From Dehalococcoidales bacterium (GTDB taxonomy: Bacteria; Chloroflexota; Dehalococcoidia; Dehalococcoidales; RBG-16-60-22), in assembly GCA_030603605.1 (NCBI GenBank), contig JAUVXN010000010.1, positions 1 to 22,003 on the forward strand: a DNA stretch of 22,003 bases, in the 5' to 3' direction. Positions 4,768-20,728 of this stretch are shown piece after piece. Position 1 is the stretch's first letter; every line of letters begins with the position of its first letter. The notes beneath the pieces were generated by a model. It saw only the letters and a program-made list of their open reading frames with translations. It did not search any database and was not told where the DNA came from. The translations under genes and the position numbers were made by a program.

Positions 4768-5010
4768 CTAAAATAGAAGGGAATGAAAACCGAAAATTCG
4801 TCCTGTGGTGCTTTCACAGATCAACGTATTCCCATTGGGCAATCGCTGGTAACTACCCATGACGGAGGTATAGAAGTTGGCGCGGAGTTCATCTTCATAC
4901 GACCATACCATCTCGTTACTCTTTGGGTTTACCTCCAGCACACGTGAAAAGCCCATAGAATATTTATCACGATGTAAACCGTTATCCAGTAATCCTATTG
5001 GACATTCCAT
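4768..5010 (-). pseudogene. Cys-leader start fused to arylsulfotransferase C-terminal fragment
   Basis: The 80-residue frame starts at ATG 5010 with an excellent ribosome site (GAGGAGGTGAACC). Its first residues MECPIGL are the start of the Cys-leader found on the proteins at 5363-5710 and 6408-6605, but the leader breaks off by residue 8. From about residue 20 it reads SRVLEVNPKSNEMVWSYE, then GSYQRLPNGNTLICESTTGRIF, which is the last beta-propeller blade region of arylsulfotransferase-like (ASST) proteins; these normally run to several hundred residues. The frame therefore joins a duplicated leader to the 3' tail of an unrelated gene. It could still be translated, but sulfotransferase activity is impossible without the active-site domain. 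Confidence 0.65.
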
Positions 5011-5024
5011 GGTTCACCTCCTCT

Positions 5025-5050
5025 AAGGCGGGGATAAACCCCGCCACTAC
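5025..5050 (-). repeat. REP-like hairpin, copy 1
   Basis: GGCGGGG (5027-5033), loop ATAAA, CCCCGCC (5039-5045), followed by ACTAC. The perfect 7-bp stem lies between conserved element A and the ribosome site of the frame starting at 5010. Five other copies share stem, loop (one base change in one copy) and the flanking ACTAC. Confidence 0.85.
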
Positions 5051-5058
5051 GGTATTTT

Positions 5059-5175
5059 GGGGCGGGATGCCACTTGCCCGATTACGCCAAGGGCAGCACA
5101 CGGGAGGGGGGTCTCACGCTTCCAGGGAGCTGCTCAACTCCTGGAGCCCTTGTTTCCCCTGGTAGAGCCCGCCAT
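5059..5175 (-). repeat. Conserved leader element, copy A
   Basis: This element of about 117 bp is nearly identical to copy B (6654-6771) and very similar to copy C (7524-7641). Its ends are inverted (GGGCGGGATGCC at the left, GGTAGAGCCCGCC at the right), so an RNA read on the minus strand could close with GGCGGG/CCCGCC. An internal hairpin, CCAGG...CCTGG, is present. Read on the minus strand it starts 8 bp after the DUF5679 stop and precedes the hairpin and start at 5010. It may be a cis-acting RNA leader or a non-autonomous mobile element. Confidence 0.75.
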
Positions 5176-5183
5176 GCGAATAT

Positions 5184-5327
5184 TCAGGCTTTCCCCATTC
5201 GGAACACCTTTGTGCCGCAAACAGAGCAGATACCTTGAACTGCCCGTGCATTATTTTTAAGTGTGACTTCCGTGGGGTTTTCCATTACCACTTTTTTTCT
5301 GCATTTCACACAATAAGCTGTTGTCAT
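5184..5327 (-). CDS. DUF5679 zinc-ribbon protein, copy 1
   Basis: This 47-residue protein begins at ATG 5327 with AAAGGAGG 5-6 bp upstream. It has two CxxC knuckles, YCVKC (Cys6, Cys9) and CSVCG (Cys34, Cys37), separated by a basic strand-turn region with VTLKNN and followed by TKVFRMGKA. This is the complete pattern of DUF5679, a small predicted zinc-binding family whose role is not known. It follows the LuxR gene 5363-5710 with only a REP-like hairpin between stop and ribosome site, so the two are probably cotranscribed. A near-duplicate (about three quarters identical by eye) occupies the equivalent position at 7650-7793. Confidence 0.85.
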   Translation of the reverse strand: MTTAYCVKCRKKVVMENPTEVTLKNNARAVQGICSVCGTKVFRMGKA

Positions 5328-5340
5328 AGTGTCCTCCTTT

Positions 5341-5366
5341 AAGGCGGGGATAAACCCCGCCACTAC
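5341..5366 (-). repeat. REP-like hairpin, copy 2
   Basis: GGCGGGG (5343-5349), ATAAA, CCCCGCC (5355-5361), then ACTAC. On the minus strand its TAGTGGCGGGG start supplies the TAG stop of the LuxR gene (5363-5365). Its other end runs into the AAAGGAGG ribosome site of the DUF5679 gene. Confidence 0.85.
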
Positions 5367-5710
5367 TTAACTTTTGGTTCGGGTGGGGCGGTTACGTCAC
5401 TCAGCGGCAGGATGCTGCAGCGTAGGGCTATTGCCGTGGCATGAGCTTTGTTCTTGGCACCGAGCTTTAACTTTATAAGGGTCATGTGGTTCTTTACCGT
5501 CTGTGTGGCTATACCCAGGGCTCTAGCTATCTCAGTATAGGTTTTCCCGTTCGCAACGTATCGCAGAAGTTCTAGTTCACGCTTGGTCAGTGGGTGTGTC
5601 ATTTCACGGCGCTTCATTTCCTTGATGATTTTATCGTAAGCACATTTGTCATGGCGCCAAAAGTTGCAGTTCTGACAATGGGTCTTGTCTAATTCTATTG
5701 GACATTCCAT
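5363..5710 (-). CDS. LuxR-type HTH regulator with Cys-leader
   Basis: This 115-residue protein starts at ATG 5710 with GGGAGGTGAACT upstream. Residues 1-33 form a Cys-leader: MECPIELDKTHCQNCNFW then RHDKCAYDKIIKEMK, with cysteines 3, 12, 15 and 23 that could bind one metal ion. Residues about 39-103 form a LuxR/GerE DNA-binding domain (LTKRELELLRYVANGKTYTE, ALGIATQTVKNHM, KLGAKNKAHATAIAL). There is no receiver or ligand domain, so the leader is the only candidate sensing part. Its stop codon lies inside a REP-like hairpin, and a DUF5679 gene follows. A metal- or redox-responsive regulator is possible but unproven. Confidence 0.85.
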   Translation of the reverse strand: MECPIELDKTHCQNCNFWRHDKCAYDKIIKEMKRREMTHPLTKRELELLRYVANGKTYTEIARALGIATQTVKNHMTLIKLKLGAKNKAHATAIALRCSILPLSDVTAPPEPKVK

Positions 5711-5728
5711 AGTTCACCTCCCTATTTT

Positions 5729-5770
5729 GGCGGCGGGATGCCACTTGCCCCATTACAGTCGAGGCACCAC
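5729..5770 (-). repeat. Conserved leader element, partial copy E
   Basis: This copy keeps only the last part of the element as read on the minus strand (CTGTAA, GGGCAAGTGGCATCCCGCC, then the AAAATA linker). It overlaps the 3' end of the HD-GYP gene, which uses it for its final codons VVPRL and stop. Copy D encodes the same VVPRL-stop in the equivalent frame. It precedes the LuxR start at 5710 without a REP-like hairpin. Confidence 0.7.
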
Positions 5771-6478
5771 AGCTTTCGTGCTTCGCTCAAACTCAAATGA
5801 TTTCTCTGTAAAAAGCCACAGGCATGCGTCCACCACATCAGTATCATAAAGAACACCTTTCTTTTGTGTGATTTCTGACAGAGCCCTATCTCTACCGAGA
5901 GCCGGACGGTAAGGGCGGTGAGAGGACATAGCTTCAACAACATCAGCTACAGCTAAGATTCTTGCTTCCAGAAGGATATCTCCATCTGATAGGCCTAAAG
6001 GATATCCAGAGCCATCCATCCTTTCATGGTGTTGATATACAATTTGGGCGATAGGCCATGGAAATTCTATAGTGCTCAATATTTTGTAACCGGCTAGCGG
6101 ATGCACCTTAATCATATTGAATTCAGCTTCAGCTAATCCGTCAGGGTTGGTGAGAATTTCAGATGGTACACGTACCTTACCGATGTCGTGGATAAGTCCA
6201 GCTAGGCGCAGGGCATTAGCCTGGTCTTCTGAAAGGCACATCTTCTTGCCTATGGCGCAGGCAAGTTGCGTTACCCGTCGCTGATGACCGGCAGTGTAGG
6301 GGTCTCTCATTTCGACTATCATAGCCATGGCCTCGACCATGTCTTTCAGTGCCTTTACCAGCTCCTCCGTGCCATGTTCCTCTTCTGCCTGGTTGCGCTT
6401 AGTATTCTCAGCTCGTAGTGCTTCGTTGGCTTTTGTCAGTTGCGCAGTTCGCTTCCTGACCTGTTTCCTCGCCTTCAT
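5753..6478 (-). CDS. HD-GYP domain protein, predicted c-di-GMP phosphodiesterase
   Basis: The protein has 241 residues from ATG 6478. Residues 1-50 form a charged coiled coil (RKQVRKRTAQLTKANEALRAE) of the kind that links sensor to output domains. Residues about 50-230 form an HD-GYP domain: His65 (TAGHQRRV), HDIGK at 97-101, His126 (HPLAGYKIL), HH at 150-151 and DGSGYP at 155-160, so metal ligands and the GYP signature are complete. Such enzymes hydrolyse cyclic di-GMP. The start lies inside an overlapping Cys-leader frame (6408-6605), suggesting that the leader was once fused to it and was separated by a frameshift, or that the two are coupled. The last codons come from repeat element E. 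Confidence 0.85.
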   Translation of the reverse strand: MKARKQVRKRTAQLTKANEALRAENTKRNQAEEEHGTEELVKALKDMVEAMAMIVEMRDPYTAGHQRRVTQLACAIGKKMCLSEDQANALRLAGLIHDIGKVRVPSEILTNPDGLAEAEFNMIKVHPLAGYKILSTIEFPWPIAQIVYQHHERMDGSGYPLGLSDGDILLEARILAVADVVEAMSSHRPYRPALGRDRALSEITQKKGVLYDTDVVDACLWLFTEKSFEFERSTKAVVPRL

Positions 6479-6605
6479 TTAATACCCTCTGCATAGTTTT
6501 ACGGCCCTTCATTTCCTTGATGATTTTATCGTAATCACATTTGTCATGGCGCCAGAAGAAGCAGTTCTGGCAATGGATCTTGGGTAATCCTATTGGACAT
6601 TCCAT
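6408..6605 (-). CDS. Cys-leader small protein overlapping the HD-GYP start
   Basis: This 65-residue frame starts at ATG 6605 with GAGGAGGTGAACC upstream. Residues 1-33 (MECPIGLPKIHCQNCFFW, RHDKCDYDKIIKEMK) are nearly identical to the leader of the LuxR protein at 5363-5710, with cysteines at 3, 12, 15 and 23. After about residue 38 the sequence becomes low quality (EGEETGQEANCATDKSQ) because it reads the HD-GYP coiled coil out of frame. Either it is a short coupled protein or the leader of an HD-GYP protein separated by a frameshift. The 71-bp overlap with the next frame fits both. Confidence 0.6.
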   Translation of the reverse strand: MECPIGLPKIHCQNCFFWRHDKCDYDKIIKEMKGRKTMQRVLNEGEETGQEANCATDKSQRSTTS

Positions 6606-6619
6606 GGTTCACCTCCTCT

Positions 6620-6645
6620 AAGGCGGGGATAAACCCCGCCACTAC
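6620..6645 (-). repeat. REP-like hairpin, copy 3
   Basis: GGCGGGG (6622-6628), ATAAA, CCCCGCC (6634-6640), then ACTAC. It lies between conserved element B and the ribosome site of the Cys-leader frame at 6605, exactly as copy 1 does at 5025-5050. Confidence 0.85.
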
Positions 6646-6653
6646 GGTATTTT

Positions 6654-6771
6654 GGCGGCGGGATGCCACTTGCCCGATTACGCCAAGGGCAGCACACGGG
6701 AGGGGGGTCTCACGCTTCCAGGGAGCTGCTCAACTCCTGGAGCCCTTGTTTCCCCTGGTAGAGCCCGCCAT
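6654..6771 (-). repeat. Conserved leader element, copy B
   Basis: This copy is identical to copy A apart from one small indel near GGCGGCGGG. The identity continues through the hairpin, the ribosome site and the first seven codons of the Cys-leader, so the A and B repeats span 4989-5175 and 6584-6771 in full. One end coincides with the stop codon of the DUF5658-like gene. Confidence 0.8.
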
Positions 6772-7115
6772 TATAAAATCCACAGGCAAATTCCGTTCCA
6801 CAGGACTATCGCCAGCATACAGATATTCAGGATCCACAACAGGTTCGTCCTGGCAAACCTGACGAGAAGAAGGATTATGACCAGGGCGAGGAGTCCCTTG
6901 ACGGGCATATTATCGCCGTAGGGGACTACTATGGGGTTCGCTTCGCGGCCGCCCATAGCTATTAGCTGCCGGGCTAGCCAGGCATCGAGTATATTTAAGC
7001 CGATAAAGGCCAGGCTGCTGCAGATAGATGCTCGGGTTGGGAATCGCTTATGCTGGCTTCCACTCACAATCAGTGGTGTTCCAAGCCCCCAGAGCACTGC
7101 CCCAACAAGTATCAC
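6771..7115 (-). CDS. DUF5658-like small membrane protein
   Basis: The frame gives up to 114 residues from GTG 7115, but the true start is uncertain because no ribosome site is visible and the first 22 codons overlap the pilin gene. From about residue 35 it reads AFIGLNILDAWLARQLI, then GGREANPIVVPYGDN, followed by two hydrophobic helices (GLLALVIILLLVRF, WILNICMLAIVLWN). The LNxLDA...GGxEANP pattern is that of DUF5658 membrane proteins of unknown role. It lies immediately downstream of the pilin gene and probably shares its transcript. It may be missing its original start. The stop abuts repeat element B. Confidence 0.6.
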   Translation of the reverse strand: MILVGAVLWGLGTPLIVSGSQHKRFPTRASICSSLAFIGLNILDAWLARQLIAMGGREANPIVVPYGDNMPVKGLLALVIILLLVRFARTNLLWILNICMLAIVLWNGICLWIL

Positions 7116-7476
7116 AGGTAGCGTTCGTGGCCGTTATGATGCAGGGTGTGCTATTGGTAGCGATGGTGTACTCAGCCTTAAGGGGACCGTCGATATAAGC
7201 AATTATTCCAGCACCATCATCACCACTACTGGATGTTCTTTCAGGGCCAACTGTTCCAGCTACATCCCTACCGACATCAATTGCATGGGCCTGAGCGGCG
7301 GTCTTGACCGTAGATACCTCGATATTGGCTGCCTGCAGAGTGCCCTTGCCGAGAAACTTACCTATATTTGGCACGATTACAACTGCCAGGATGCCCAGGA
7401 TAGCGATGACAATCAGCAGCTCGATCAGGGTAAATCCCCTGTGGCCGCAGCGGAATGATTTTAGAAACCTTTTCAT
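7048..7476 (-). CDS. Type IV pilin-like protein (prepilin)
   Basis: The protein has 142 residues from ATG 7476, with AAAGGAGG about 18 bp upstream and AGAGG closer. A short basic leader (MKRFLKSFRCGHRG) ends at the prepilin peptidase site G-FTLIELLIVIAILGILA, which gives residue +1 Phe and Glu at +5 as in class III leader / type IVa pilins. The N-terminal helix is followed by a globular part with four cysteines, two near the end (CDTCW) that may form a C-terminal disulfide loop. It would be a pseudopilin or pilus subunit. No assembly ATPase or platform gene is in the window. Conserved element C lies 45 bp upstream. Confidence 0.85.
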   Translation of the reverse strand: MKRFLKSFRCGHRGFTLIELLIVIAILGILAVVIVPNIGKFLGKGTLQAANIEVSTVKTAAQAHAIDVGRDVAGTVGPERTSSSGDDGAGIIAYIDGPLKAEYTIATNSTPCIITATNATCDTCWGSALGAWNTTDCEWKPA

Positions 7477-7523
7477 GTGTTAACCTCTGTTAACCTCCTT
7501 TTTTAACTTTCGTTTCCTAATTT

Positions 7524-7641
7524 GGCGGTGGGATGCCACTGGCCCGATTACGCCAAGCGCAGCACACGGGAGGGGGGTCTCACGCTTCCAGGGAGCTGCT
7601 CAACTCCTGGAGCCCTTGTTTCCCCTGGCAGAGCCCGCCAT
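7524..7641 (-). repeat. Conserved leader element, copy C
   Basis: This copy differs from A and B at a few positions (GGCGGTGGGATGCC at the left end, GCAGAGCCCGCC at the right, CCAAGCGCAGC inside). It lies between a DUF5679 gene and the pilin gene. No hairpin repeat separates it from the pilin ribosome site. Confidence 0.75.
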
Positions 7642-7649
7642 GCGAATAT

Positions 7650-7793
7650 TCAGAATTTCCCCAGTCGGAACACCTTTGTGCCGCAAACAGAGCAGACACC
7701 GCGGACTGCATGGCTATTATTTTTGAGTATGCCTTGCGTGGGGTTTTTGATTTCTACCTTTCTTTTACACTTCATGCAATAAGCTGTTGTCAT
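7650..7793 (-). CDS. DUF5679 zinc-ribbon protein, copy 2
   Basis: This 47-residue protein starts at ATG 7793 with AAAGGAGG about 7 bp upstream. The two knuckles are YCMKC (Cys6, Cys9) and CSVCG (Cys34, Cys37), and it ends TKVFRLGKF. It is a paralogue of the copy at 5184-5327, and the flanking sequences on both sides are also duplicated (REP-like hairpin upstream, conserved element downstream), so a block including the gene was copied. It lies immediately downstream of the LuxR-tailed IS110-like gene. Its role is unknown; zinc binding is inferred from the cysteines. Confidence 0.85.
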   Translation of the reverse strand: MTTAYCMKCKRKVEIKNPTQGILKNNSHAVRGVCSVCGTKVFRLGKF

Positions 7794-7808
7794 AGTGTGT
7801 CCTCCTTT

Positions 7809-7834
7809 AAGGCGGGGATAAACCCCGCCACTAC
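7809..7834 (-). repeat. REP-like hairpin, copy 4
   Basis: GGCGGGG (7811-7817), ATAAA, CCCCGCC (7823-7829), then ACTAC. On the minus strand the leading TAG is the stop codon of the gene 7831-9063, and the hairpin is followed by the DUF5679 ribosome site, the same arrangement as copy 2. Confidence 0.85.
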
Positions 7835-9063
7835 TGTAGTTCTCTTTTGTATGCCATGGTAACGAGCTGAGCTTTATTTCTCAGGCCCAGCTTTTTGTTC
7901 ATATGAGCGACCTGGTTGGTCACGGTATGAGGCCTGGTAGAGAGAGCATCAGCAATTTCTGTAATGCTATAGCCCTGGGCAATAAAAGCTAGAATCTGCC
8001 CTTCGCGTGGAGTCAGTGGGGCTTGAGGGTCTGAGGGCTTTTCTGGTACAGCAATCTGCCTGGCCCTTTCACGACTTATGCCCAATCTACGGCCGATTTC
8101 GGCATAGCTCAGGTCGGCCTTCGTTAACTGAACTACTCGGGTGCGTCTAGAGGGCCCTGGGGGATAGGCCTCTGGGGCATAGGCCAAAGGAGGCTCCAGC
8201 TCATCACACATCTCTTCAGGTTCAATCATATGGTCATGGCCCAGATACTCTGCCGGATAGGGAACTCTTGTTGATAGACCCTGGGCTTGCCTCCATACGA
8301 CCCACAAGAGGGATAGGAAGAGTTTAATCATCTTGCGCAAGGCCATCTTGTGTAAATGTCCTTCGAATATGACTCCTTCTGGCTCCTGTTTTTGCCTTAG
8401 AGGAGCGCCACAATCAGGGCAGTATTTGGCTGCTTTTGCTTTAACCTCCCTCTGACATTGAGGGCAAAATCTACCGGTTGGTGTGGCTATAATCTTGAAA
8501 CCTTTGTTTATGTATTTGTGATGATACTTATCCTTTTCCTTCAGGTAGTAGTGATAGAATAAACCCTTTGCCCGGAGCAAACTTACTCCAAGGCGCCAGG
8601 TCATCACTCTGAGTTGTGAGTTATAAGTTAGCTTCTTGCCCTTTCTCCGCTTTGGTGCTGCGCCATCCTGGACATCCCAGCCGGCAAACTTCCACAGGCT
8701 GGACACAGTATGGGCTTTTTCTATATCAATCAGGCCGACAACTTTAGCAATATTTTCATTTCCCACACCTTTTACTCTAGTAAACCAATAATATGCTGGA
8801 TGAGCCTGGATAAGTTCAGTAACTCTAGCCTCAGCATATTCTTCAAGGGATACAAGCCTGCGATGGAGCTCATCTGTCTCAATGTCCTTTTTCCCCTGAC
8901 GGGCCAGGTGGGTTCGCCTCACCTGAGTGGCCACTCTTAGTTTTTCAATAACTAAAGTAGCATCTACCAGGGCTGGCATTGTGGATAATTTCTCTAGGCG
9001 GGGATGAACCCCGCCACTACTGGTAGGTGGGTCGCTCAGGACGATTGGTTTTCTCATAATCAT
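7831..9063 (-). CDS. IS110-type transposase_20-like protein fused to zinc ribbon and two HTH domains
   Basis: The protein has 410 residues from ATG 9063, or 382 from ATG 8979; neither start has a strong ribosome site. Residues about 90-190 carry the helix-hairpin-helix region of IS110/IS116 transposases (FTRVKGVGNENIAKVVGL, SLWKFAGWDV, MTWRLGVSLLRAKGLFYHYY). The DEDD catalytic domain that should precede it is absent. A zinc ribbon follows (Cys200, 203, 215, 218), then LHKMALRKMIKLFLSLLWVVWR, a sigma-like HTH (LSYAEIGRRLGISRERARQI, 319-338) and a LuxR HTH (PLTPREGQILAFIAQGYSI, ending near 405). It appears to be a domesticated DNA-binding protein. Its LuxR tail resembles that of 5363-5710. A REP-like hairpin encodes residues 15-24 if the upstream start is used. 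Confidence 0.75.
   Translation of the reverse strand: MIMRKPIVLSDPPTSSGGVHPRLEKLSTMPALVDATLVIEKLRVATQVRRTHLARQGKKDIETDELHRRLVSLEEYAEARVTELIQAHPAYYWFTRVKGVGNENIAKVVGLIDIEKAHTVSSLWKFAGWDVQDGAAPKRRKGKKLTYNSQLRVMTWRLGVSLLRAKGLFYHYYLKEKDKYHHKYINKGFKIIATPTGRFCPQCQREVKAKAAKYCPDCGAPLRQKQEPEGVIFEGHLHKMALRKMIKLFLSLLWVVWRQAQGLSTRVPYPAEYLGHDHMIEPEEMCDELEPPLAYAPEAYPPGPSRRTRVVQLTKADLSYAEIGRRLGISRERARQIAVPEKPSDPQAPLTPREGQILAFIAQGYSITEIADALSTRPHTVTNQVAHMNKKLGLRNKAQLVTMAYKRELQ
8997..9022 (-). repeat. REP-like hairpin, copy 5 (inside or before a reading frame)
   Basis: GGCGGGG, loop ATGAA, CCCCGCC, then ACTAC; the loop differs by one base from the other copies. It lies within the first 25 codons of the long 7831-9063 frame, or just upstream of the alternative start at 8979, which would put it in the usual position in front of a start codon. 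Confidence 0.8.
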
Positions 9064-9150
9064 TGGCTCGCTTGCTTATAGTGGGTTTCTCATCACCTCT
9101 GGCTCGCTCATCACTTCTGGAATTCATATCACTGCCGGCCTGACCAAATG

Positions 9151-9259
9151 GGCGGTGGGATGCCACTTGCCCGATTACAGCCGAGGAACCACACGGGAGG
9201 GAACAAAAAACCTGGGCTGGTAAGACCCGCCTCGAATTTCCCCTGGCAGAGCCCGCCAT
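9151..9259 (-). repeat. Conserved leader element, diverged copy D
   Basis: The ends match the other copies (GGCGGTGGGATGCCACTTGC at the left, CCCCTGGCAGAGCCCGCCAT at the right), while the middle differs strongly. The middle still offers a hairpin (GGGCTGGTAAGACCC) in place of the CCAGG/CCTGG stem. Conserved ends around a changed but still foldable middle are what a structured RNA or a family of short mobile elements would show. Confidence 0.7.
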
Positions 9260-9274
9260 GCAAGCCTGCTGAGA

Positions 9275-9313: not shown

Positions 9314-11365
9314 TTACTCCAACACCTCGAAGGTAGCCGTCTCCGGGTTGCCGTCGGGAGTCATGTTATCCACGTTGTCCATAGCCCAGGCATAAACGGT
9401 ATAGGTTTCGGCCCAGCCTGGTGTGAAGGTAACGCTGGCTTCATCGCTGAAACTCAGTACGTATTCGATGACGTCCTCGTAGGCCACTTGCGGGGCAGCC
9501 AGAGAACTGGGTGGGGGTGGGGGTTCAGGCCAGGGGCTGGAAACCAGGAACATCACCAACTGCACGCCACTGGGGTCAGCAGCCGAAACCGTTACGGTTA
9601 CCTCGTCTCCCAGTGACACTGTGGCTGGAACATCAATGGTTATCGTTGGTGGAGTTACATCCACGCCAGCAGGAATCTCATAGTAGACATCTACGGTGTA
9701 GTCGCCAGCTTCATAGGCGAAGACCCACAGGTTATAGGCCTGGCCCAGAGGACCGTCAGCAGTGATGTATTCTTCACCACCGCTATAGCCACTATAGCCG
9801 AAGTCGTCACCTTCATAGCTGCCACCTGGCGCCGAGCCGATCTCGCCGTTCCAGCCAATGATCAGGGTAGCCCCATCATACAGCTCCAGGTCCAGGTCAT
9901 CAGTTGCCGAGAGGTCTATGTCAAGAGCGGCAGCCCCTGCGGGTATGGCGCAAATGAAGTCCCTATCTCCCTCAGCTAATCTGCCAGTGAATGTTTCTTC
10001 AAACACTCCGTCACCAACTATTACCTCACCATCGTTCTCAAGGATAGTTATTGGCGCATTGTTCTCATCCAGCAGAGTGGCCTCGATAGCCAGGACATAT
10101 GTGCCCTCCGCGGCAGCATCAACAGCGAAGTCGATGGTCATGAAGTTGCCTTCTACAGCAGCAGGAACATTATCCCCTGTCCTAACCACAGCCCAGGTAA
10201 CTTCGCCAGCAGCTATACCAGGATTGTCGTCCGGGATAGCCAGTACTGGAGTGCCTAACAAGGGCAGCCCTATTGCGTCAGTGGCCGTGAGGTCGGTGTC
10301 AAAGGTTACTTCTACCTCACAAGCCTTGACAAGAAGACCCGATGAATCCACTGCAACATCAACGCTGAATGAGCCACCAGCTTCCGCTGTTAGGCTATCA
10401 GGCTCGATGCTCACCGATGGAGCCTCCTCGGGCGAAGGACCAGGCACAATTACCGTGCCATCATTTATTTCGACAACAACCGGCTCCACGTTCTCATCCA
10501 CCAGTTCAGCCCTGGTAATGGTGAGGTCATAATCACCTGGTGCAGCATCCGCATCCATAGTAAACGTGATGGTCATTAGTGAAGCATCAACATCTGCCAC
10601 TGCGGTTGTGCTAACCAGTGCGTAACTGACCTCTCCGTCGGTTACTGTGGGTCCGATCTCCAGTCCACCAAGTAGATCGGGAGCCACTATGTCTGCTCCA
10701 CTGGTAGTCATGGCATCGGCGTCATACCCTACCTTCACATCAATCCCCAACAAGCTGTTATCCCCGGCATCCACCAGGACATCAATGTCGAAGGTGTCGC
10801 CGGGATCCACTTCCCCACTATCCGCCGGGTCAATGCTCACCGATGCGCCGGTCGGAGGAGCAGCACCAGACACAGTTACCGTGCCATCGTTTATGGAAAC
10901 AGTAACCGGGTCCACGTTCTCATCCACCAGGTCAGCCTTGGTAATGGTGAGGTCATAATCGCCCGCTATGGCGTCGTCGTTGATGGTAAAGGTGATGGTC
11001 ATTACTGAACCATCAACATCTGCCACTGCGGTTGTGCTAACCAGTGCGTAAGTAACCTCTCCGTCAGCTACCAAGGGACCGATCTCCAGTCCACCAAGTA
11101 GATTGGGAGCCACTATGGCTGCTCCACTGGTAGTCATGGCATCGGCATCATAGTCCACGGCCACATCAATCCCCTTCAAGCTGTTATCCCCAGCATCCAC
11201 CAGGACATCAATGGTAAAGGTGCCCCCTGGATCCACTTCCCCACTATCCGCCGGGTCAATGCTCACCGATGGAGCTTCCTGGGCCAGGGCGGTGCCCATC
11301 CCCAATAGACTTGCAACCAGAAGGGAGGCTACTGCGATTCCGAGAAACTTTCTTTTACCTATCAT
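9314..11365 (-). CDS. Secreted multi-cohesin protein (scaffoldin-like)
   Basis: The protein has 683 residues from ATG 11365, chosen because AAAGGAGG sits 6 bp upstream (a GTG one codon earlier is too close). A signal peptide (residues 1-29, MIGKRKFLG...GTALAQ) precedes three cohesin-like modules of about 140 residues, each starting PSVSIDPADSGEVDPGG or similar and containing DVLVDAGDNSLKGIDV, SYALVSTTAV and MTITF. Modules 1 and 2 are near copies; module 3 is diverged. Next come a PPC-type beta domain (about 455-570, FTGRLAEGDRDF) and a C-terminal Ig-like domain (TPPTITIDVPATVSLGD). No sortase signal or S-layer motif is seen. Cohesins bind dockerins, and the gene upstream encodes one, so this is likely a surface or matrix scaffold and not a cellulosome part, since no glycoside hydrolase is near. 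Confidence 0.8.
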   Translation of the reverse strand: MIGKRKFLGIAVASLLVASLLGMGTALAQEAPSVSIDPADSGEVDPGGTFTIDVLVDAGDNSLKGIDVAVDYDADAMTTSGAAIVAPNLLGGLEIGPLVADGEVTYALVSTTAVADVDGSVMTITFTINDDAIAGDYDLTITKADLVDENVDPVTVSINDGTVTVSGAAPPTGASVSIDPADSGEVDPGDTFDIDVLVDAGDNSLLGIDVKVGYDADAMTTSGADIVAPDLLGGLEIGPTVTDGEVSYALVSTTAVADVDASLMTITFTMDADAAPGDYDLTITRAELVDENVEPVVVEINDGTVIVPGPSPEEAPSVSIEPDSLTAEAGGSFSVDVAVDSSGLLVKACEVEVTFDTDLTATDAIGLPLLGTPVLAIPDDNPGIAAGEVTWAVVRTGDNVPAAVEGNFMTIDFAVDAAAEGTYVLAIEATLLDENNAPITILENDGEVIVGDGVFEETFTGRLAEGDRDFICAIPAGAAALDIDLSATDDLDLELYDGATLIIGWNGEIGSAPGGSYEGDDFGYSGYSGGEEYITADGPLGQAYNLWVFAYEAGDYTVDVYYEIPAGVDVTPPTITIDVPATVSLGDEVTVTVSAADPSGVQLVMFLVSSPWPEPPPPPSSLAAPQVAYEDVIEYVLSFSDEASVTFTPGWAETYTVYAWAMDNVDNMTPDGNPETATFEVLE

Positions 11366-11378
11366 CACTTACCTCCTT

Positions 11379-13376
11379 TCACCATGAAGTCCCGAAAACA
11401 GTGGCGAATTGCACGAAGTCAAGCAGGTCAATGTCGCCATCGTCATCGAAGTCGCCTATTGCATTGTAGTTGTCATCTCCTAGCTCCGAGCCATAAGCCT
11501 CAGCAAAGTAAACGAAGTCAGTCAGGTCAATGTCGTTATCGTCATCGAAGTCGCCCTTGGTTACTTCGGACACGCCGCTGATGGCGAAGGGTGTGCCGCC
11601 TAGCTCTGAGATGTTTGGTGTAGTGTCGGCTGCTCGCACTTTGACCCAGAGAAATTCGTCTGTCGGGTTGTAGCCCTGGTCAGAGCACGCCAGCCACATT
11701 CCCTGAAGGTCATCGAAGACATACGCCGTTGATTCAGCAGTAATGTTGGCATCAGCGAACTTAATGACGATCTGGGTAGCCACCAGGAGACCCCCATCAG
11801 GACAAGCGGTCACCTGGACATCAAAGAAGCCGTCCTCAATTAGGTTGGAGGGCGCATCGGCGTCTGGTTCAGGATTGCTGGCATAACGGCCAACTGTAAT
11901 GCTTGCATCATCGCCGGTGATAGATACCGCCACTCCGACCGTCTCTAAGGCGTCTAGTTCATTAAGTTCATCATCACAGGTAACACTGTCGGCTTCTAAC
12001 CAGGAAACAACCCTGAAGGGCCAGCTTTCAGTAGCCTCGTTCCCAGCGTTGTCGGAGACGCTAACTGTCACATCATGAGTGCCCTCAGCCAGGTCGTCCT
12101 CAGGGGTATAGGTCACAGCAGAATCTGTAAGGGACGAAGCATCGTCTGTGACATCCACGCCATCGACGAGCATCTCCACCGAGTCCTCATCAATGCCAGA
12201 GGTACCACCGCTATAGGTCGCCTTTATCACTGGCGTGGGATCCTCGGTCATGGCATCATCCAGGGGTGATACAACGGTTATCGTCGGGACAGTGTCATCT
12301 ACCCAAGCGTCAATAGAAGTAGGTGACGCCGAATCATCGCCGGCTCCCCAGAAGGGGGTACTAGTAGTGTATTCTACGGTGATGGTAGAACCATCCTCGA
12401 CGTAAAGCTCATCTTCTGCAACTGGAGGTGTGCCCGAGGTGCCGATTGAGCAAGTGAAAACACCGGTATCAGCACCCGTCTCCTCGAGGGCGACTGTGAT
12501 TTCGGTTAATGGGTCGCTAGAACTCTTGGCGGTAACCTTCCAGTTTTCTTCGAGTACTTCGTCCACATCGTAATTAGCCTCAACCGGGTTGATCCTGACG
12601 GAGTCAGTGTTGGCGGCGAAGTTGGGCACCGTCACCTCTACAGTATCGCCGACACTGTAGTACTCCTCGTCCAGGAATATGGGCTCAAGCTCGTAGGTGG
12701 TGCCGGCTATGGTGATGTCGTCGATGTAGGCAGTCCTTTCCTGCACATCCGGCACATATAACTCGACTTGAACTCTGGTGAGCTCATAGTCCAACATTGC
12801 GCTAAGAACCCCGCTTACAGCAGCAGCAAGGGTAGTATAGTCGGTACTAGTTGATCCGTCCCAGGTGCCAACATTTCCGAAGTTGGTATCAAGATCCACC
12901 TCAGTCCACGCATCTAGCACAGTGTCAGGTCCACTTTGTAACATTAATGTTACCTCGGCGAAGTCGGTACTATCAGGATCCTCAAACTTCAGTTCCAATG
13001 CTGGACCATTGGAACTTACGGTGGTCTCAGTCAAATAGTACCAGAAGCCAAAATCTCCGCCTGTAGCGTCATCAAGGTCGCTGAGCGTTGTCCCCGCGGC
13101 TGGAATGAATTCTACGTGGAGGTCATCTTGATTGTCGTCGTTATCGTGCACAAGCTTCACCGAGTAGCTTCCACTGTACGGGTCGTCGCTAATACCTACC
13201 TCGCCAACGCCAACCCACGTCGCTGGCGAATCAGTGGTGGGCTCTGCAAGACTGTAGCCCACGTCGGTGTCAGCCGGAGTGTCAGCCGCAACCGCTGGCA
13301 CCAAAGTCAGTCCAGCCACCAGCGCCAGGGCAAATACCGTGTATAAAACCTTGGTATACAATTTATGTTTGGTCAT
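11379..13376 (-). CDS. Secreted dockerin-containing protein with Ig-like domains
   Basis: The protein has 665 residues from ATG 13376, with AAGGAGG 5 bp upstream. A signal peptide (residues 1-31, ending VPAVAA) is followed by an acidic beta-sandwich region resembling carbohydrate-binding or concanavalin-like folds (about 40-225), a strand-rich region, and an Ig-like domain (TVPTITVVSPLDDAM ... TVSVSDNAGNEAT). The C-terminus (605-665) is a type I-like dockerin with two calcium loops, GDFDDDNDIDLTDFVYFAEA and GDFDDDGDIDLLDFVQFATV. No catalytic domain is recognised. It is the first gene of an operon with the cohesin protein, 13 bp apart, so the two products are probably binding partners at the cell surface. 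Confidence 0.85.
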   Translation of the reverse strand: MTKHKLYTKVLYTVFALALVAGLTLVPAVAADTPADTDVGYSLAEPTTDSPATWVGVGEVGISDDPYSGSYSVKLVHDNDDNQDDLHVEFIPAAGTTLSDLDDATGGDFGFWYYLTETTVSSNGPALELKFEDPDSTDFAEVTLMLQSGPDTVLDAWTEVDLDTNFGNVGTWDGSTSTDYTTLAAAVSGVLSAMLDYELTRVQVELYVPDVQERTAYIDDITIAGTTYELEPIFLDEEYYSVGDTVEVTVPNFAANTDSVRINPVEANYDVDEVLEENWKVTAKSSSDPLTEITVALEETGADTGVFTCSIGTSGTPPVAEDELYVEDGSTITVEYTTSTPFWGAGDDSASPTSIDAWVDDTVPTITVVSPLDDAMTEDPTPVIKATYSGGTSGIDEDSVEMLVDGVDVTDDASSLTDSAVTYTPEDDLAEGTHDVTVSVSDNAGNEATESWPFRVVSWLEADSVTCDDELNELDALETVGVAVSITGDDASITVGRYASNPEPDADAPSNLIEDGFFDVQVTACPDGGLLVATQIVIKFADANITAESTAYVFDDLQGMWLACSDQGYNPTDEFLWVKVRAADTTPNISELGGTPFAISGVSEVTKGDFDDDNDIDLTDFVYFAEAYGSELGDDNYNAIGDFDDDGDIDLLDFVQFATVFGTSW

Positions 13377-15098: not shown

Positions 15099-15125
15099 CA
15101 GGCGGGGATAAACCCCGCCACTACT
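15099..15125 (-). repeat. REP-like hairpin, copy 6
   Basis: GGCGGGG, ATAAA, CCCCGCC, ACTAC, far from the other copies but again just upstream of a ribosome site. On the minus strand its TAG ends a short open stretch (SIDIDFIWEAKVKAPQQLKQ) that looks like the tail of a lost gene. Confidence 0.85.
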
Positions 15126-18352: not shown

Positions 18353-19549
18353 ATGGGTGAAAAGGCGTCGGTTTATATAAAAAAAACGATTCTTTTAATT
18401 TCAATTCTTTCATTATTAATTGTCGGTTGCCAATTAGAACCTCCCAGTATATTCACTTATCGACCACCTGAGAATATTAATGATGGACTTGACGTCGGCA
18501 CTTTAGATGAAGTGAATATTGATTCAGTGTTGATTGAAAAAGCAGTCAATAGAATATACGCCGGCCGGTATAAAGAAATACATTCAATGCTTATTTTCAA
18601 GGATAACAAGCTGGTATTAGAAGAGTATTTTACGGGTCATGGATACAAATGGGATGCTGCTAAGCATCACGATGAATTGGTGACCTGGGACAGGACAATG
18701 TTACATGATGTTAAGTCTGTGACCAAAAGTATTACTTCAACCTGTATCGGAATCGCGATAGATCATAGTTTTATCGAAAGTGTTCATCAATCCATATTTG
18801 ACTATTTACCGGAACATCAGCACCTCAATACAGGTGGGAAAGATAAAATTACCATCGAACATCTGCTGACCATGACCTCCGGATTAGAGTGGGATGAGTG
18901 GGGTGCGCCTCTCAGCAGCACGGATAATGACATCATTGGCTTGTGGTTTCACTGTGATGATCAGATCACTTGTATTTTAGAAAGGCCACTGGTAGATGAA
19001 CCAGGGACAAGTTTTACTTATTCAGGTGGAAATATGATTGTTTTGGGTGAAATCATTAAGAATGCTACAAAAATGAATATTGATGAGTTTTCTCGAAAAT
19101 ATTTGTTTGAGCCCTTAGGGATTGCTTCTTCTAATTGGACAGTACGATACGAAAATGGTGTGATTGAAGCAGCCGGTAGTTTAGAAATTACACCAAGAGC
19201 GATGGCTAAAATTGGTGTGACATTTCTAAATAAGGGAGTTTGGAATGGGAAGCAAATTATTTCCGAACAATGGGTCGATAAAAGCGCCACTTCATTTCCC
19301 GGTAACCATGGGATTAATGTCCCGGGTGAAGATTCGGGGAGAAATGGTTATTCCTATTCGTGGTGGATAAGAACATTTTCTAATTCAGGTAAAAGAATAA
19401 ATATGTATTCTGCCATGGGTTGGGGAGGACAGTATATTATGGTCTTCCCTGAATTAAACACAGTGGTTGTTTTCACAGGTGGCACTTACACATCTAAAGT
19501 ACGGGTATTTAATATTCTTGAAGAACATGTTATACCCGCTATTGTTTAA
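18353..19549 (+). CDS. Serine hydrolase lipoprotein (beta-lactamase / PBP4* family), AT-rich
   Basis: The protein has 398 residues from ATG 18353. A lipoprotein signal ends in LIVGC (Cys26), so the protein is probably anchored on the outer face of the membrane. The beta-lactamase-like fold shows SVTK at 122-125 (nucleophile Ser122, Lys125), YSG at 223-225 in place of the common YxN, and GWGGQYIMVF in place of HGG. Such class C-like enzymes include esterases, peptidases and D-amino-acid hydrolases; the substrate is unknown and resistance is not implied. The gene is clearly AT-richer than the homologous gene 3 bp downstream. Confidence 0.85.
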   Translation: MGEKASVYIKKTILLISILSLLIVGCQLEPPSIFTYRPPENINDGLDVGTLDEVNIDSVLIEKAVNRIYAGRYKEIHSMLIFKDNKLVLEEYFTGHGYKWDAAKHHDELVTWDRTMLHDVKSVTKSITSTCIGIAIDHSFIESVHQSIFDYLPEHQHLNTGGKDKITIEHLLTMTSGLEWDEWGAPLSSTDNDIIGLWFHCDDQITCILERPLVDEPGTSFTYSGGNMIVLGEIIKNATKMNIDEFSRKYLFEPLGIASSNWTVRYENGVIEAAGSLEITPRAMAKIGVTFLNKGVWNGKQIISEQWVDKSATSFPGNHGINVPGEDSGRNGYSYSWWIRTFSNSGKRINMYSAMGWGGQYIMVFPELNTVVVFTGGTYTSKVRVFNILEEHVIPAIV

Positions 19550-19552
19550 GTT

Positions 19553-20728
19553 ATGAATAAATCAGTAGGCCAAGTAAACATTTCCAAGTGGCGCCAGCAT
19601 TCTTTCCTCTTATTCGCCAGCGCGATCCTAATCCTATCCATGTTGGTCGGATGCGGCCCTTCGACTGAGGAGCTCGAAGCGGTTGAATACACACCGCTGC
19701 CCGGGGATGATTGGAAGGTGTCGACGCCCGCAGAGCAGGGGCTGGATCCGATGCTTGTGGCGGAGCTATATTACAATGCGGCTGAATTGGAGAGGCTCTA
19801 CGGGCTGCTGGTCATCAAGAACGGCCATCTGATAGCTGAAGGGTACTTCAATGAAGGGTCGGTTGAGCAGAAAGCCCGATTGCAGTCAGTGACGAAGAGT
19901 TATACCTCGGCCTTGGTCGGGATTGCCCTGGAGCAAGGTTATCTGTCAAGCGTGGACCAGAAGATGATGGATTTCTTCCCGGAAGTCGCCGGTCAAATGA
20001 CTGACCCGAGGAAGGAGCAGATAACGATTGAACACATGTTGCAGATGCGCGCCGGATATCCCTGGGAGGAAACCGATCCAGTTCTTTGGGAGGGGCTTTT
20101 ATCGGGTCACTATCCGCCCCTTATAGAAGAATTCCCTCTCATCGCCGATCCGGGAACCGAGTTCCATTACAGCAATCTGACGTCCAACTGGCTGGGGATT
20201 ATCGTAGACCGGGCGTGTGGTACGAATCTCAAGTCATACGCCGAGGAGCATTTGTTCTTGCCGATTGACGCGGAGGTGGGCGATTGGGGCACGGACAGGG
20301 ACGGCCATAACAACGGCTGCGCGGATCTCCACTTTTCGGCTCGTGATATGGCCAGGTTCGGTCTGTTATATCTCAACGACGGTGAATACGAGGGGAACCA
20401 GATCGTTCCAGCCGATTGGGTCAGTGAATCACTGCAGAGGTACTCGGAGGATATCAATGCGACTGGCGGATTTCCAGCAAACTGGGGCCTTTCCATCAGC
20501 GACATCGGGTATGGCTATCAGTGGTGGTCCGCCAGGGTAGGCGAGCATCATTTCGACTTTGCGTGGGGACATGGAGGGCAGCTGATTGTTTTGTTGGATG
20601 AGCTCGACATGGTTATTGTCGTTACCTCTGATCCGTTTTACCTGCAACATGATGACGAGTCATGGAAGCACGAAAAGGCGAACATCAATGTGGTGGGTGA
20701 GTTCATCAACTCCCTGCCGAGTGATTGA
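19553..20728 (+). CDS. Serine hydrolase lipoprotein (beta-lactamase family), GC-rich
   Basis: The protein has 391 residues from ATG 19553, 3 bp after the preceding gene and without a clear ribosome site of its own, so it may depend on translational coupling. The lipobox LVGC ends at Cys34. Catalytic motifs are canonical: SVTK at 112-115, YSN at 206-208 and WGHGGQ near residue 342. It is homologous to the upstream gene in overall layout but much diverged, and its codon use is far more GC rich. An attC-like site begins 27 bp after the stop, so the gene could have arrived as an integron-type cassette. Confidence 0.85.
   Translation: MNKSVGQVNISKWRQHSFLLFASAILILSMLVGCGPSTEELEAVEYTPLPGDDWKVSTPAEQGLDPMLVAELYYNAAELERLYGLLVIKNGHLIAEGYFNEGSVEQKARLQSVTKSYTSALVGIALEQGYLSSVDQKMMDFFPEVAGQMTDPRKEQITIEHMLQMRAGYPWEETDPVLWEGLLSGHYPPLIEEFPLIADPGTEFHYSNLTSNWLGIIVDRACGTNLKSYAEEHLFLPIDAEVGDWGTDRDGHNNGCADLHFSARDMARFGLLYLNDGEYEGNQIVPADWVSESLQRYSEDINATGGFPANWGLSISDIGYGYQWWSARVGEHHFDFAWGHGGQLIVLLDELDMVIVVTSDPFYLQHDDESWKHEKANINVVGEFINSLPSD

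Follow-up and report, generated by a model that had tools for sequence, protein, structure and literature searches.

A family of Dehalococcoidia elements with a covarying loop-loop helix, predicted to be structured RNA leaders

Riboswitches of the purine type form a three-way junction with kissing loops, and the cobalamin riboswitch is a leader whose loops pair over a long range. Dehalococcoides and Dehalogenimonas remove chlorinated solvents, and to our knowledge the switching of their many reductive-dehalogenase operons is largely open. One report describes the rdhA motif (WRC-34-1) as a weak riboswitch candidate immediately upstream of reductive dehalogenase (rdhA) genes, with 18 representatives, mostly from Dehalococcoides (PMC11109978), and two other papers place riboswitches, type not named, ahead of the tceA and S-layer genes of Dehalococcoides (PMC5102406) and a molybdenum cofactor (Moco) riboswitch before moaA and moaC in Dehalogenimonas (PMC13390414). 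Here we describe an element of about 120 bases that occurs as four full copies and one 3' remnant, every one on the minus strand, in a 22,003-nt stretch of a Dehalococcoidales bacterium (contig JAUVXN010000010.1, positions 1 to 22,003; the whole stretch is called the window below). The element is a member of a family of Dehalococcoidia elements, it has a conserved, complex secondary structure with covariation of the outer stem, one arm and a loop-loop helix, and at most copies it lies ahead of the gene that it would control, in that gene's orientation. We read it as a predicted structured RNA leader likely working as a riboswitch that sets the translation of the gene shortly downstream, and put the probability of this reading at slightly above one half (about 0.52). 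A limited literature search returned nothing that we recognised as this element.

The first relatives came from one pattern scan of genome contigs, which gave 22 stretches, and two covariance models were built. Model R1 consists of 22 full copies (alignment A2), three of them from the window; window copy 5058, which is near-identical to 6654, and L001, which has a diverged 5' part, were excluded, as were the remnants and diverged matches L004, L005, L006, L009, L010, L015 and the window remnant. Model R2 consists of 39 distant copies (alignment A5), none from the window or the R1 set, and it recovers all four full window copies with E from 4.7e-12 to 2.2e-15. The copies in the window are as follows.

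9151-9260, minus strand: element copy 1, full (R1 95.1 bits; R2 53.9 bits, E 4.7e-12 at 9148-9260)
7524-7642, minus strand: element copy 2, full (R1 100.8 bits; R2 60.2 bits, E 9.9e-14 at 7521-7642)
6654-6772, minus strand: element copy 3, full (R1 105.8 bits; R2 65.8 bits, E 3.3e-15)
about 5729-5771, minus strand: element copy 4, 3' remnant (exact core match and alignment)
5058-5176, minus strand: element copy 5, full (R1 104.7 bits; R2 66.5 bits, E 2.2e-15)

A pattern for the 3' core, made up of 20 fixed bases and two N, has five matches in the window with 0 mismatches, and no match in 100 dinucleotide shuffles even with three mismatches allowed. The copy 4 remnant gives a weak whole-model R1 match (24.8 bits at 5729-5893) and no R2 match up to E 1. 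Downstream of the copies, same-strand ATG codons lie at 9063, 7476, 6605, 5710 and 5010, with spacings of 87, 47, 48, 18 and 47 nt, so the first-pass annotation of this DNA, which reported five copies in one direction, each before a start codon, was true and its coordinates were right to a base or two. It had also described a middle that varies, which holds for the 9151 copy and for relatives elsewhere but not among the other three full copies, which are alike. Because two of these are 95% identical to the third over 132 nt, the window alone is unable to test structure. None of the window copies folded more stably than its shuffles on either strand (minus strand z +1.1 to -0.9); folding stability is thus no evidence for structure, and covariation among relatives is.

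The family is seen in Dehalococcoidia genomes. The titles of 20 of the 22 stretches from the pattern scan name Dehalococcoidia, Dehalococcoidales, Chloroflexota or Chloroflexi, one names Deltaproteobacteria and one Bacteroidetes; the genome of the Deltaproteobacteria-titled record (G011) is listed in the same class as G001, and the Bacteroidetes record (L010) is a pattern match only, its genome being without a model match. R1 matches were present in 12 of 13 individually searched genomes, with up to 15 per genome, and in 30 of 393 sampled genomes of the class Dehalococcoidia. R2 matched 27 of the 393 class genomes and 9 of 11 genomes of one family; at phylum level it matched 11 of 400 genomes, all 11 already found in the class searches. 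The large genome searches used stricter filters, which lose weak matches. A blastn search of phage and plasmid collections with one window copy gave no match, and IMG/VR contained one exact type-1 pattern match and five type-2 pattern matches; among the latter, one was clearly an element and another was marginal (E 0.051). Clear copies stand in two viral-collection contigs (L166 and L168); in L168 a full element (1726-1854) sits in what looks by eye like a phage gene run, with 12 nt separating it from the preceding open reading frame (ORF) and 17 nt from the following one.

Read as RNA on the minus strand of the window, the aligned copies indicate that the fold is likely an outer stem with two stem-loops whose loops pair. 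The outer closing stem P1 is GGCGGG/CCCGCC and is variable elsewhere in the family; these ends, noted in the first annotation as able to pair, are indeed present in the window copies. Stem P2 is UGCCA/UGGCA, one arm begins with GGGGAAA and carries a variable hairpin in its loop, the second arm is CCCG/CGGG, and a six-pair helix, CUGAGG/CCUCAG, joins the two arm loops. In the window, three full copies have a CAAGG/CCUUG-like version of this helix and the fourth has CGAGG/CCUCG, and we infer that it would form a kissing contact in a three-way junction. Among the 39 diverse copies of A5, 16 columns are invariant and 13 nearly invariant, and the conserved core motifs are GGGGAAA, CCUCCCGUG and GUAAUCGGG.

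Both alignments show compensatory changes. In A2, 97.3% of cells are paired and both sides have changed at 7 of 25 pairs, including four of the six loop-loop pairs; the cells with both-side changes number 16 against 3.6 in shuffles, a value reached by none of 500 shuffles; in all, four of five covariation measures were reached by 0 of 500, and the remaining one (further pair types) by 49. The more diverse A5 has 95.4% of cells paired, both-side changes at 16 of 20 pairs (two of the four pairs in the CCCG/CGGG arm) and 101 such cells against 25.9 in shuffles, with 0 of 500 shuffles reaching it on any of the five measures, and slid registers pair far worse (27 to 60%). Given A5 alone, RNAalifold arrives at P1, some of P2 and the loop-loop helix; it also proposes four pairs (18 with 146, and 19-21 with 135-137) that were unused in the analysis. 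The variable inner hairpin is retained, with a median z of -2.1 and 35 segments below -1 (mononucleotide shuffles of the 49 of 61 segments that were extractable). There are more G-U than A-C cells, 46 to 9 in A5 (30 to 9 when one mainly U-G pair is left out) and 14 to 7 in A2, so this strand is favoured.

Of the 98 copies collected, 96 had sufficient flanking sequence for their position relative to genes to be counted; this was done on long-ORF calls, which makes the counts rough. A same-strand gene starts no more than 300 nt downstream of 62 of the 96, against 11 for the mirror image (both, 8; neither, 31), so that the discordant pairs stand 54 to 3 (p 4e-13). A ribosome-binding site with a start within 150 nt was found for 51 copies against 10 mirrored, and after collapsing shared flanks the bias remained (54 against 9 mirrored in 87 contexts). 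Random orientation and a lack of covarying pairs had been named in advance as what would mark a plain dispersed repeat; the orientation is biased and the pairs covary.

No family of Rfam 15 overlaps the element, in the window at E 1, at 12 loci at E 0.5 or at six loci at E 10; these scans of element-bearing sequence gave tRNAs and chance-level matches only, and the c-di-GMP-I model had no match on the element in the window or the selected loci. The proposal of a structured 5' leader family outside the known riboswitch classes is therefore backed by covariation, by leader geometry and by the absence of an Rfam match on the scanned members. In predicted topology, a closing stem and two arms with paired loops, the element resembles the purine riboswitch type; it differs in sequence, in size and in the extra variable hairpin in one loop, and it matches no Rfam family. 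Some copies precede molybdopterin-enzyme genes and a gene of SBP_bac_11, a family presumably linked to molybdate, which recalls the Moco riboswitch (RF01055). The Moco reading was rejected because the scanned members gave no Rfam match and because the Moco riboswitch is reported separately, before moaA and moaC (PMC13390414).

The genes downstream differ between lineages. For five genomes of the family of G202, which we label Dehalogenimonas-type by inference and which carry 23 to 52 rdhA matches each, every match lies on one large contig, and here 20 of 27 copies have a same-strand rdhA match within 5 kb downstream, against a random mean of 0.98 (maximum 6 in 5000 trials) and 1 of 27 when mirrored. 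These 20 copies point to 18 rdhA matches, some sites being one locus in two genomes; for four of the 20 copies the match scores 126 to 131 bits, short of the family cut-off of 160, and one partial rdhA match was omitted in each of two genomes. In a sixth such genome, the draft G148, which lies outside the 27-copy count, both copies have an rdhA match within 3 kb downstream. Directly before rdhA stand only two, perhaps three, of the 27 copies, a difference from the rdhA motif, which its report places immediately upstream of rdhA (PMC11109978); the two, compared by description, may overlap. The first longer gene at 24 Dehalogenimonas-type loci, judged by eye, is ribonucleotide-reductase-like at 14 (with a short ORF intervening at two of them), radical-SAM (S-adenosylmethionine) at seven, B12-radical-SAM-like at one and rdhA at two. 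Of named representatives, TIGR02504 was over cut-off in two of two tested and rdhA in one of two tested, and the radical-SAM proteins matched only below cut-offs. Ribonucleotide-reductase-like genes are multiplied and lie between the element and rdhA genes (L102, L103, L117, L119, L134, L145 and others). Weak short cobalamin-riboswitch matches (24 to 31 bits) were also seen within about 2 kb of rdhA matches, at G111:C1:300591, G202:C1:1419011 and 1463026, and G213:C1:247377 and 360983.

Three genomes that we label Dehalococcoides-like, again by inference, have two copies each. At the first site a response-regulator gene precedes the element, which is followed after 18 or 19 nt by an ORF of 26-28 codons:

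L138, 1395-1481, minus strand: short ORF starting MSxLGLWLIL (translation)
L139, 1402-1482, minus strand: short ORF starting MSxLGLWLIL (translation)
L140, 1402-1482, minus strand: short ORF starting MSxLGLWLIL (translation)

In the draft genomes selected downstream proteins were scanned, some of them several hundred nt from the element. They include transport proteins (DctP, SBP_bac_5, Peripla_BP_4, two permease families, SBP_bac_11 and an ABC ATPase), Fer2_2 (twice with a molybdopterin-binding partner that was scanned as well), a Fer4 protein, a corrinoid protein and a trimethylamine methyltransferase-like protein (these last two below cut-offs), AsnC, DUF169, DUF3100 and two proteins without a family; by eye, MarR, other TRAP genes and others are also downstream. 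The earlier suggestion that the element controls a pilus and c-di-GMP set does not carry over to these genomes, where ribonucleotide-reductase-like, radical-SAM, rdhA, transporter, molybdo-hydroxylase, corrinoid methyl-transfer, MarR and AsnC genes follow it; a link to pili and c-di-GMP is particular to the window.

The conserved core, the covarying loop-loop helix and the leader position together fit a riboswitch. The folded core would bind a small molecule or second messenger, and binding would set the translation of the gene starting shortly downstream; we infer that the element is transcribed, acts in cis and binds a ligand. The folded form is predicted to leave the start open, and in the unfolded form the C-rich strands could cover the ribosome-binding site. 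We favour an action on translation for two reasons: some copies sit so tightly between genes that a promoter would not fit, and terminators are not enriched behind the element (1 of 98 copies against 33 of 1723 in the control, and 3 of 98 against 76 of 1746 under a laxer rule), so that a terminator platform is not favoured.

Several observations weigh against the riboswitch reading, the unenriched terminators among them. In the 41 copies with a close start, pairing of the ribosome-binding site with the element (0.12) was lower than with shuffled elements (mean difference -0.17, 6 of 41 higher); the trend is opposite to simple masking of the site within the predicted fold, and from neither result is an expression platform evident. 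As to the fold, stem P3 (GGGG/CCCU) is nearly invariant and hence unsupported by covariation, each full window copy departs from the family fold by one mismatch (9151 and 7524 by C-A in P1, 6654 and 5058 by A-C in P2), and the R1 set has a perfect 3' core because the pattern that selected it required one. As to context, 34 of 96 copies have no called same-strand gene start within 300 nt, 21 of 96 face the end of a convergent gene no more than 300 nt downstream, and in 19 of 96 a called ORF covers more than half of the element. At the second Dehalococcoides-like site, in all three genomes, a terminator-like hairpin directly follows the element, and the L166 copy lies 10 nt after a pilin-like ORF (by eye) with a terminator beyond. 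Of the 70 rdhA matches in the Dehalococcoides-like genomes, not one comes within 5 kb of any of the six copies there, which also sets these copies apart from the rdhA motif, reported mostly from Dehalococcoides (PMC11109978). The main doubt comes from the genes served, which are very mixed, unlike those of most metabolite riboswitches; the mixture argues for a global signal or a protein partner.

On the first of these possibilities, we tentatively suggest a Dehalococcoidia-specific class of kissing-loop riboswitches that would sense one global energy or cofactor signal and tune genes of organohalide respiration, corrinoid methyl transfer, molybdo-hydroxylases, uptake and regulation, with phages having taken up the leader; this broader picture we hold to be less probable than not. 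A core common to unrelated operons would point to such a global signal. Since a covarying element in the right orientation lies no more than 5 kb upstream of rdhA at 20 of 27 sites in five genomes, one answer to how reductive-dehalogenase operons are switched becomes directly testable, and models R1 and R2 could find the element in other Dehalococcoidia genomes.

The second possibility is that the leader binds not a small molecule but a protein, either a regulator or an antitermination factor modifying RNA polymerase, and so would allow read-through of long operons or adjust translation. An upstream same-strand gene end lies within 300 nt of 64 of the 96 copies (within 50 nt of 33 of those 64), so that many copies are inside operons, as read-through would have it, and the functional mix of the genes served suits a protein partner too; by eye, response-regulator-like genes are often directly upstream in Dehalogenimonas-type genomes. 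The core, in which 16 columns are invariant and 13 nearly so across 39 diverse copies, however exceeds the needs of most protein sites, and we regard a protein site as rather unlikely.

The element may instead be a separate RNA species or a processing or cleavage element, that is, a small RNA or ribozyme that happens to sit between genes. Copies directly after upstream stops, the Dehalococcoides-like site with its immediate terminator-like hairpin and the L166 copy between the pilin-like ORF and a terminator would all agree with this, and pseudoknotted folds are common in ribozymes. It is nevertheless an improbable account, since start codons cluster shortly downstream (62 of 96), no Rfam ribozyme matched the scanned members and no cleavage consensus is recognisable.

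A non-autonomous mobile repeat with inverted ends, spreading between genes without a regulatory role, was also considered. The element shares with REP (repetitive extragenic palindromic) units and MITEs (miniature inverted-repeat transposable elements) its many copies (up to 15 matches in one genome), its pairing ends and its 3' remnants (in the window, L004, L005, L009 and L015), and the near-identical window copies and the copies in viral-collection contigs fit such spread as well. Unlike those repeats it is oriented before genes (54 to 3) and its internal stems have evolved by compensation; copies also recur at the same gene in different genomes, and one duplicated window unit carries the neighbouring DUF5679 ORF. 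The spreading element offered earlier as an alternative is not supported, given the orientation bias and the duplicated block with its neighbouring gene, and we consider it very improbable. A strongly derived cobalamin riboswitch serving B12-dependent genes has as little in its favour or slightly less: the element does keep what we take to be a cobalamin-riboswitch-like motif order (GGGAA, GGUG, AA, CCCG, CUGUAA) and partly serves B12-dependent enzymes, standing in Dehalogenimonas-type genomes before adenosylcobalamin-dependent ribonucleotide reductase (TIGR02504), reductive dehalogenase and B12-binding radical-SAM-like genes and in drafts before the corrinoid and trimethylamine methyltransferase-like proteins (over or below cut-offs as given above), but the scanned members have no RF00174 match, RF00174 occurs at other sites in 14 of 16 element-bearing genomes (over cut-off in 12), two such matches when aligned look different from the element, and no B12 link exists for the genes of the window or for the transporter and molybdo-hydroxylase genes, so this candidate was rejected.

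The genes of the window array, all read from the minus strand, are listed below with the repeat that accompanies them (HTH, helix-turn-helix).

7831-9063, minus strand: zinc-ribbon and LuxR-type HTH protein, gene after copy 1 (GerE 4.1e-15)
7048-7476, minus strand: type IV pilin-like protein, gene after copy 2 (N_methyl, the N-methyl pilin motif, 2.7e-9)
6456-6605, minus strand: small ORF after copy 3, first 50 codons, starting MECPI and overlapping the HD-GYP start (translation)
5753-6478, minus strand: HD-GYP-type HD domain protein (HD_5 6.2e-42)
5363-5710, minus strand: MECPI N-terminus fused to a LuxR-type HTH, gene after copy 4 (GerE 1.8e-17; translation)
4768-5010, minus strand: MECPI start fused to an arylsulfotransferase C-terminal fragment, gene after copy 5 (PF14269 2.1e-5, 24.5 bits, below the cut-off of 27; translation)
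5187-5327, minus strand: DUF5679 zinc-ribbon ORF directly upstream of copy 5 (DUF5679 5.2e-15)
6622-6645, minus strand: GTAG hairpin (repeat B) between copy 3 and its ribosome-binding site (repeat search)

The gene after copy 1 had been called IS110-like; the 7831-9063 protein matches 16 Pfam families (E up to 0.01), none of them of the IS110 type. The array is duplicated at two levels, so the leader and gene start were likely copied or recombined together, and the near-identical copies are likely duplicates of a leader-plus-gene-start cassette. At the first level, a 279-nt block of DUF5679 ORF and element is present at 5054-5332 and 7520-7798 with 88% identity; by translation, the relative of the DUF5679 ORF begins at 7793, directly upstream of copy 2. 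At the second, the element, hairpin B and the MECPI start are found together at 6605 and 5010, and the MECPI start is found also after the remnant (5710), within which the HD-GYP reading frame terminates (5753). The minus-strand ORFs starting at 6605, 5710 and 5010 have the start MECPI in common; two of the three continue as a Cys-rich HCQNCxFWRHDKCxYDKIIKEMK, one of these two being fused to the LuxR-type domain, and the third is fused to the arylsulfotransferase fragment.

Hairpin B, GTAGTGGCGGGGTTTATCCCCGCC, is identical at 5027-5050, 5343-5366, 6622-6645, 7811-7834 and 15101-15124 and has one mismatch at 8997-9020, and five of the six window copies directly precede a ribosome-binding site and ATG. 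It is GTAG-headed and resembles REP units. It was found in none of the 166 other records fetched, and was therefore rejected as a part of the leader and treated as a local repeat. Elsewhere in the window, the minus strand of 9314-13376 encodes two large proteins, one with cohesin domains and one with immunoglobulin (Ig)-like/HYR domains, with DNA repeats inside the region, and the plus strand of 18353-20728 encodes two adjoining proteins of the beta-lactamase family PF00144.

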